A stretch of DNA of 33,676 nt from Halobellus salinus (GTDB taxonomy: Archaea; Halobacteriota; Halobacteria; Halobacteriales; Haloferacaceae): positions 1-33,676 of the forward strand of contig NZ_BMOC01000021.1 in NCBI RefSeq assembly GCF_014646875.1. The letters are read 5' to 3'. The stretch's first letter is position 1; each line of letters begins with the position of its first letter. Positions 6,693 to 8,627 of this stretch are shown here, one piece after another. The position numbers and the translations under genes were made by a program. The notes under the pieces were generated by a model. That model did no database searches. It was not told the DNA's origin and saw only the letters and a program-made list of their open reading frames with translations.

Positions 6693-7859
6693 ATGGCAAC
6701 CACGGAGGCGTTCCGCGGACTGGGGTGCACCGCGACCGGCGAGCGCTACGACGCGACCGCCACGGGCAAAAGCGACGCCGGGGCGCGGCTGGAAGCCGAC
6801 TACGACTACGACGCCGTCGACTGGGCCGGCGACCTCGGAACCGGCCGGTCGATGTGGCGGTACGGCGATCTGCTCGCGTTCGAGGAGCCGGTCACCGCCG
6901 GCGAGGGCGGCACCCCGCTGGTCAACGCGGCACCGCTTGCGGCCGAGGCGGGTGTCGGGACGCTCTCGATCAAAGACGAGAGTCGGAACCCGACTGGAAC
7001 AGCCCTCGATCGCGGGCTCTCGGTCGCGGTGACTGCTGCTCGCGAGGCGGACGCCGACCTGGTCGCGCTCGCAACACCGGGGAACGCTGGCCAGTCGGCC
7101 GCCTCCTACGCCGGGATGGTGGGACTCCGGTCGTACGCGTTCGTCCCCTCCCGTGCGCCCTTCTCGAACAAGGCGATGGTGAACGTCCACGGGGGAGAGA
7201 TGCGCGTCGCCGGCGGTCGGTACCCCGACGCGGAGGCCGCGCTTCACGAAGATCTGAAATCGGAGTGGTACACCCTCCAGGAGTTCGACAATCCCCACCG
7301 CCACGACGGACTCAAGACCATCGCCTTCGAGATCGCAGAGTCGCTCTCGTGGACCACCCCGGACGCGGTCGTCGTGCCCGCCGGAACGGGCGAGGTCGTC
7401 GCGAGCGTTGTAAAGGGGTTCCGCGAGCTCCGAAACGTCGGCGTCGTTGACGCGCTGCCGCCGGTGTACGCCGCCCAGCCGTCGGGGTGTGCACCGCTCG
7501 TGGCCGCACACAAGCGCGACGCCGACGCGCCGGAGTCCTGGGAGTCGCCGGACACCATCGTCGGGGAGTTGGAAATACCCGAACCCCGTGGTGGGGGCGC
7601 CGCGCTCGCGGCGGTCACGGAGACCGACGGCGGGTTCGTCGCGGTCGACGACGACGACGCCCTCGAGAGCGCGGTCGTCGCCGCCCAGCAGGTTGGACTC
7701 GAGGTTGGCGCGGCCGGCGGCGTCGCGCTCGCGGCGGTGGAAGCACTCGCTACCGAGGGTGTGCTCGGCGCCGACGATCACGCAGTCGCAGTCAACACCG
7801 AGTCCGGTAGCAAAACCGCAGACGTCCTCCGAAGTCACCTGATGGGGAAGGGGATCTGA
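6693..7859 (+). CDS. Threonine-synthase-like fold-type II PLP protein lacking the Schiff-base lysine
   Basis: The 388-residue protein is built like archaeal threonine synthases: ELEIP-type C-terminal region, substrate-entry segment GEGGTPLV (71-78), IKDESRNPTG (93-102), the asparagine loop TPGNAGQSAASYA (128-140) and a PLP-phosphate-like region around PAGTGEVVASV. In the family the next residues after NPTG read S/T-F-K-D-R-G, where Lys forms the internal aldimine. Here they read TALDRG, so the Lys position (105, codon CTC at 7005-7007) is Leu and the preceding Phe is Ala. The reading frame and all surrounding motifs are intact, so this is not a decayed gene. It may be a PLP-binding or regulatory paralogue rather than a working threonine synthase. 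Confidence 0.82.
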   Translation: MATTEAFRGLGCTATGERYDATATGKSDAGARLEADYDYDAVDWAGDLGTGRSMWRYGDLLAFEEPVTAGEGGTPLVNAAPLAAEAGVGTLSIKDESRNPTGTALDRGLSVAVTAAREADADLVALATPGNAGQSAASYAGMVGLRSYAFVPSRAPFSNKAMVNVHGGEMRVAGGRYPDAEAALHEDLKSEWYTLQEFDNPHRHDGLKTIAFEIAESLSWTTPDAVVVPAGTGEVVASVVKGFRELRNVGVVDALPPVYAAQPSGCAPLVAAHKRDADAPESWESPDTIVGELEIPEPRGGGAALAAVTETDGGFVAVDDDDALESAVVAAQQVGLEVGAAGGVALAAVEALATEGVLGADDHAVAVNTESGSKTADVLRSHLMGKGI

Positions 7860-7922: not shown

Positions 7923-8627
7923 ATGTTGAGCGACGTGATGGAAGACTACCTGAAGGCGATCTACCGGATCCAGGCCCGTTCGGGCCCGCCGGTCTCTACA
8001 TCTGCCATCGCAGACGCCATCGACAAGACGCCGGCGTCGGTGACGAGTATGCTCGGGACGCTCGAAGACCGGGGGGTCGTCGTCCATCAAAAGTACAAGG
8101 GGGTCGAACTCACGACCGACGGCGAGCGGGTCGCGCTCGAGGTGGTGCGCCACCACCGACTACTCGAGGCGTACCTCGCCGAACACCTCGACTACTCCTG
8201 GAGCGAGGTCCACGACGAGGCCGACGCCTTGGAACACCACATCAGCGAGGAGTTCGAGCGGCGCGTCGCGGCCGCACTCGACGACCCGGCGGTCGACCCC
8301 CACGGCGACCCCATCCCCTCGGCTGACCTCGCCCCGCTCGACGGCGACGACACCACCCCGCTTTCGGCCTGCGAGGTCGATGATCGGGTACTCGTCACCC
8401 GCGTCAACGACCGCGACCGCGAGGATTTGGAGTACCTCGAAGCAGCCGGGGTCACGCCGGGAACGGCACTAAAAATCGTCGGCGTTGCCCCGTTCGGGAT
8501 GGTAACGGTCCGGGTCGACGGCGACACCGAACAGAGCCTCCCCGAGTCGGTCGCGGAGTCGATCCGGGTGTGTGACGCCGTCGACGCGGCCGTGGCCGAC
8601 GAACGCGGGGAGGTGACCGACGCGTGA
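7923..8627 (+). CDS. sirR: DtxR/MntR-family metal-dependent transcriptional regulator (SirR-like)
   Basis: The 234-residue protein has the three-part layout of this family. An N-terminal winged helix (about residues 5-62, MEDYLKAIYRIQ and SAIADAIDKTPASVTSMLGTLEDRG) is followed by a metal-binding dimerisation domain (about 65-130) rich in His, Glu and Asp (RHHRLLEAYLAEHLDYSWSEVHDEADALEHHIS split over two helices). The C-terminal part is an FeoA/SH3-like domain (about 155-222). Such proteins repress metal transport genes when loaded with Mn(II) or Fe(II). The downstream membrane transporter overlaps the stop codon by four bases, and a palindrome lies at the promoter. Mn(II) sensing is inferred from that partner. 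Confidence 0.92.
   Translation: MLSDVMEDYLKAIYRIQARSGPPVSTSAIADAIDKTPASVTSMLGTLEDRGVVVHQKYKGVELTTDGERVALEVVRHHRLLEAYLAEHLDYSWSEVHDEADALEHHISEEFERRVAAALDDPAVDPHGDPIPSADLAPLDGDDTTPLSACEVDDRVLVTRVNDRDREDLEYLEAAGVTPGTALKIVGVAPFGMVTVRVDGDTEQSLPESVAESIRVCDAVDAAVADERGEVTDA

Follow-up and report, generated by a model that had tools for sequence, protein, structure and literature searches.

Can a protein built like threonine synthase, in which the Schiff-base lysine has been replaced by leucine, still be a PLP enzyme, and what is it if it is not? The question is raised by an open reading frame at positions 6693..7859 of the forward strand (ATG start, 388 aa) in a stretch of 33,676 nucleotides from Halobellus salinus (NZ_BMOC01000021.1), referred to here as the window. 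The frame encodes a Lys-less threonine-synthase-like protein of the PALP, fold-type II group, which we interpret as a probable pseudoenzyme.

Sequence and predicted fold of the protein

The sequence at 6981-7019 (SRNPTGTALDRGL; codons agt cgg aac ccg act gga aca gcc ctc gat cgc ggg ctc) is translated as S R N P T G T A L D R G L, and the protein thus has NPTGTALDRG instead of the expected NPTGTFKDRG. Ala104-Leu105 replace Phe-Lys at the Schiff-base Lys site (7002..7007, forward strand). The codons GCC CTC reported for these positions in the initial annotation agree exactly with the reading frame and with the alignment to PDB 2d1f and 2zsj, in which Leu105 lies exactly under the Lys of NPTGSFKDRG.

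The fold-type II PALP domain is present, as Pfam PALP (PF00291) matched residues 68-369 with 201.6 bits, and the AlphaFold model of the 388-aa protein (pLDDT 92.8, pTM 0.93) has a confident threonine synthase (ThrC) fold. The top structural matches of the model are threonine synthases, namely 2c2b (Z 49.2), 6cgq (Z 47.0) and 1v7c (Z 46.6), and its architecture is ThrC-like, with Z of 40-49 against ThrC structures. Two features of ThrC are absent: the Schiff-base Lys of NPTG(S/T)FKDRG, with Leu105 in its place, and the Gly-rich PLP phosphate-binding loop, which here contains PAGTGEV with Glu234. The protein also falls short of the cut-offs of both threonine synthase models, with 124.4 bits against 167.1 for TIGR00260 and 257.2 bits against 303 for NF006050. 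Elsewhere in the family, a Lys-less Natrinema protein (L101:5001-6188) reaches 333 bits against the NF006050 cut-off of 303 and would be given the name threonine synthase by automatic annotation.

The former cofactor site

In fold-type II enzymes, a Gly-rich loop holds the PLP phosphate. When compared with orthologues, the former loop of the studied protein (residues 229-238; 7377..7406, forward strand) reads P-A-G-T-G-E-V-V-A-S, while that of Lys-containing orthologues is P-T-G-G-G-V-G-L-V-G and that of canonical ThrC is VGNAGN. Glu234 within it (7392..7394, forward strand) is invariant in the 33 rows of the Haloferacaceae Lys-less clade; the same position is Val in Lys-containing orthologues (GGGVG) and Gly in canonical ThrC. 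Glu370 (7800..7802, forward strand), which by homology would lie at the pyridine end of the old PLP site, is Glu or Asp in 32 of the 33 clade rows and Gly in Lys-containing orthologues. The clade has Thr or Ser at position 232 in every row and newly conserved glycines at 300, 301 and 343, and its site 105 varies (L, Y, F, I, H, T). Of the N-terminal CxxC...CxxC metal-knuckle region of Lys-containing orthologues (6726..6788, forward strand), only Cys12 is left here, and these cysteines are mostly lost across the clade. The view of the initial annotation that all fold-type II motifs are intact therefore had to be given up, as the phosphate loop is altered and three of the four N-terminal cysteines are gone.

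The Lys is absent from 93 of the 127 non-redundant family members sampled. The GGGxG loop is intact in 30 of the 34 rows with Lys and in none of the 93 without it. Lys and loop changed jointly in five phylogenetically independent pairs and oppositely in none; the sign test, with only five informative pairs, gives p 0.0625, the minimum attainable for five. No alignment column gains a Lys in the Lys-less proteins. The initial annotation had allowed that the protein might bind PLP or use another Lys; since the phosphate loop is lost in all Lys-less members sampled and no Lys has been gained, both are unlikely. Its further suggestion of a sensor, scaffold or inhibitor may still apply. Among the positions conserved in Lys-containing rows, those with the greatest relaxation in Lys-less rows include the PLP site (104-105, 129, 228-236 and 299-301). 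R154, F157, K160, H166, R203, Q262, C266, T288, D377 and R380-S381 are kept in the Lys-less rows.

In Natrialbaceae, no residue is fixed at loop position 232, so the lineages have gone separate ways. In Lys-less proteins of Haloarculaceae type (L246-L259 and relatives), the same position is His in 13 of 16 rows, a remodelling particular to that lineage and unlike the Glu234 of Haloferacaceae. The four rows with Lys and a broken loop sit inside Lys-less groups and seem to have regained Lys by chance. Five proteins (L169 and L081, both from Natrinema, and L215, L236 and L261) have Lys within Lys-less groups together with a broken loop, and in these Ser or Val precedes the Lys (e.g., TSK); this looks like a chance return of Lys.

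Distribution in haloarchaea and presence of canonical threonine synthase

The gene was found in 375 of 392 haloarchaeal genomes, in 340 of the 345 of good quality and in 89 of 95 genera. Every intact orthologue of the genus Halobellus lacks the Lys, which rules out a sequence error or a private mutation. A non-Lys residue is conserved in a clade of homologues, a point that the initial annotation had proposed to check. The residue at the Lys site is Leu in most Haloferacaceae, and Ala, Thr, Arg, Val, Asp and others occur elsewhere; the replacements in Natrialbaceae are A, T, R, M and V.

The orthologue of Halobellus rufus (L061:4971-6169) looks broken, being split into two ORFs, and that of Haloquadratum walsbyi J07HQW2 (L070/L020) has in-frame stops. 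Either the gene is dispensable at least in Haloquadratum walsbyi J07HQW2, or the breaks in L061 and L070/L020 are draft errors.

Two family copies, one of them with Lys and an intact loop, are present in some Haloferacaceae (g2, g5 and g7) and in genome G217. The second Lys-containing copies form their own group in the tree together with L262, and none was found in the Halobellus salinus genome studied; they may stem from an old paralogue or from gene transfer. Second copies of this kind, with an intact phosphate loop (L275-L287), occur in several Haloferacaceae genera (genomes G020, G037, G049, G060, G083, G119, G125, G134 and G146).

The Halobellus salinus genome also encodes, on contig C9, a separate canonical threonine synthase with NPTGSFKDRG. 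Of the 392 haloarchaeal genomes, 383 have canonical ThrC, among them all 345 of good quality. The second, canonical thrC that the initial annotation asked about thus exists, both here and in all high-quality haloarchaeal genomes; with the Lys and the phosphate loop absent and a separate canonical gene at hand, its statement that the protein is not an ordinary threonine synthase is supported. Canonical ThrC being nearly universal, threonine synthesis should not need the studied gene. For the same reason, the idea that the Lys-containing copies stand in for a missing canonical ThrC was rejected. In H. volcanii, the growth of an insertion mutant of thrC3 (HVO_2969), possibly a member of the studied family, was restored by glycine, serine and threonine (PMC4300041).

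Recurrent loss of the lysine

The phylogenetic analysis was performed on 113 rows, with the Lys and loop columns left out. The tree requires at least 11 changes between Lys and non-Lys, nine of which are forced by well-supported branches; an earlier sequence set gave eight changes, seven of them forced in the same way. A single clade of Lys-less rows was rejected (delta lnL 608, p-AU 1.4e-91). Sister pairs at the same locus fall on both sides of the change. L189 (Lys) and L194 (Thr) are 81% identical and share the order of their upstream genes, L297 (Lys) and L298 (Ala) are 80% identical with five conserved flanking genes, and the flanks of L295 (Lys) and L294 (Arg) are also conserved. A further pair, L187/L296 (Lys/Arg), is 73% identical with unmatched flanks. 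The sequence comparisons thus show that the Lys was lost many separate times in haloarchaea, a repeated independent loss that goes beyond what had been foreseen from the single gene.

Selection on the gene and its neighbourhood

By a simple Nei-Gojobori estimate, the pairwise dN/dS of the studied gene was 0.13-0.18 in comparisons with six sequences of Halobellus type and at most 0.26 with Halogeometricum, values similar to the 0.08-0.26 of canonical ThrC. In the Haloferacaceae Lys-less clade, conservation is 95% or higher at about 100 positions. The protein lacks essential catalytic residues of its enzyme relatives, and its gene is retained intact under purifying selection, with L061 and L070 as exceptions. 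Post-loss rate ratios were 1.61 against about 0.9-1.8 for the neighbouring genes and 1.20 against 0.9-1.2; with these neighbours as a control, the increase is modest, and rate acceleration as a proof of lost function was dropped. The low dN/dS and the invariant Glu234 speak against decay and in favour of a protein that has been kept and remodelled.

Among the neighbouring genes, a divergent FAD-dependent amine oxidoreductase-like gene (PF01593; 5332..6630, reverse strand), located 62 bp away, is the best conserved. It is present in 49 of the 89 sampled loci, directly upstream and divergent in 32, and accompanies both Lys-containing and Lys-less family members. Downstream lies a gene for a metal-dependent regulator of the MntR/DtxR family (7923..8627, forward strand), which is directly downstream in 17 sampled loci. 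Both neighbours are leads, with the FAD protein as a candidate partner only.

Alternative explanations

An alternative to repeated losses, in which a single Lys-less paralogue of ancient origin went unrecognised and was lost differentially, seems hardly credible. Two copies do exist in some genomes (the Haloferacaceae g2, g5 and g7, and G217), but the second ones are a separate Lys-containing group with L262, one origin is rejected by the AU test, and same-locus sister pairs that differ in Lys cannot come from one old Lys-less paralogue. It is also very improbable that the protein is an active PLP enzyme which works through another Lys or holds PLP or PMP non-covalently. K94, K160, K208 and K374 remain, and there is a precedent in the fold-type I enzyme ColD, which uses His instead of Lys. 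Against this stand the absence of any gained Lys and the loop broken in 93 of 93 Lys-less members, with Glu in the Haloferacaceae clade where canonical ThrC has Gly.

Slow decay, in which the active site of a redundant PLP enzyme erodes in many lineages and the gene is kept by chance or weak selection, is unlikely. It would fit the repeated losses, the many unlike replacements in Natrialbaceae, the broken copies in two Haloferacaceae strains, the modest rate increase and the reappearance of Lys inside Lys-less groups (e.g., Natrinema, TSK), as drift would allow. However, the ORF is intact in nearly all genomes and present in 89 of 95 genera, dN/dS is well below 1, and one of the roughly 100 highly conserved positions of the old Lys-less clade differs from the Lys-containing state. 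A re-purposed pocket, which would make the Haloferacaceae Lys-less protein a new ligand binder or a PLP-independent enzyme, is possible but doubtful. It would use the acid-lined old cleft (Glu234, Glu/Asp370) and the invariant Cys266, and as regards PLP it agrees with the pseudoenzyme reading. Glu234 and Thr/Ser232, both present in every row of the clade, the new glycines, the acidic residue at 370 and the retention of Cys266, K160, H166 and R203 speak for it. On the other hand, position 105 varies within the clade, Cys266 and most of the kept residues also occur in Lys-containing orthologues and so need not be new, and Glu234 is not common to the other Lys-less lineages. A broader form of the same idea, that PLP was abandoned repeatedly across the class and that the cleft of one family was rebuilt around invariant acids into a ligand-sensing or regulatory site, is likewise conceivable without being favoured.

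A probable retained pseudoenzyme

The reading we prefer, and consider quite probable from the sequence evidence, is that the Lys-less protein is a retained non-PLP pseudoenzyme; the Halobellus salinus protein itself has almost certainly ceased to be a B6 enzyme. Its ancestor would have been a PRK08197-type ('threonine synthase') PLP enzyme, inherited by haloarchaea beside canonical ThrC. Both the Schiff-base Lys and the phosphate loop with its glycines then disappeared independently in many lineages, which kept the rest of the fold. The retention of the gene after repeated loss suggests that a second role, independent of PLP, was present in or acquired by the ancestral enzyme, and each loss may have dropped a catalytic activity that canonical ThrC had rendered dispensable. 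As Lys-containing species also keep the gene, the second function probably predates the losses. With Leu at the Lys site and the invariant loop Glu, the cleft of the Haloferacaceae clade should reject PLP, and it may bind something else or nothing. The protein would most likely serve another enzyme as a dimeric subunit with a regulatory or scaffolding role, with contacts possibly made via the family-specific residues R154, F157, N159, K160, M162, N164, R176, C266, T288, E294 and R380-S381, which are conserved in both Lys-containing and Lys-less members.

Pseudoenzymes are a kind of protein already known, and to our knowledge most are paralogues that arose only once. Here, Lys and loop have been lost repeatedly from a single core gene at one locus, and closely related sister species differ in whether the step has been taken, so that the transition from enzyme to pseudoenzyme can be studied in natural replicates. 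The recurrent loss would also imply that the Lys-containing parent has a second, hidden function. Moreover, many haloarchaeal 'threonine synthase' annotations name a protein that almost certainly cannot catalyse this reaction, with consequences for metabolic models. In the open-access literature searched, we found no papers on this family or on recurrent loss of the PLP Lys and phosphate loop.

Comparison with known systems

The studied protein resembles canonical ThrC (TIGR00260; PDB 1v7c, 2d1f, 6nmx and 2c2b) in fold, length, the NPTG/DRG frame and the substrate-side residues R203 and K208-T209, at about 21-30% identity, but it differs in having neither the Schiff-base Lys nor the phosphate loop and in scoring below the NCBIfam cut-off. 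The Lys-containing proteins of the NCBIfam 'threonine synthase' PRK08197/NF006050 are its orthologues, found at the same locus in sister species and with the same family-specific motifs; they reach 374-382 bits (cut-off 303), whereas the studied protein reaches 257 and that of Haloferax 294.

Cysteine desulfurases are fold-type I enzymes. Rv3778c of M. tuberculosis, a cysteine-desulfurase relative without the Lys that was judged likely noncatalytic, is also a PLP-family protein lacking this residue, but belongs to an unrelated family (PMC12910592). A closer parallel in function is TSB-like of core eudicots, a pseudoenzyme derived from tryptophan synthase beta which is reported to activate its partner, tryptophan synthase alpha (TSA), allosterically (PMC12727527). 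As here, a fold-type II PLP-family member has lost its reaction and the protein has been kept. Unlike the haloarchaeal protein, TSB-like is a duplicated plant paralogue with a known partner, and its reported changes affect a glutamate and an aspartate (E190 and D386), with none described at the PLP Lys or phosphate loop (PMC12727527). It is because of this analogy, which is functional only, that a regulatory or scaffolding subunit appears the likeliest specific role of the haloarchaeal protein, although we propose it tentatively and at somewhat less than even confidence.
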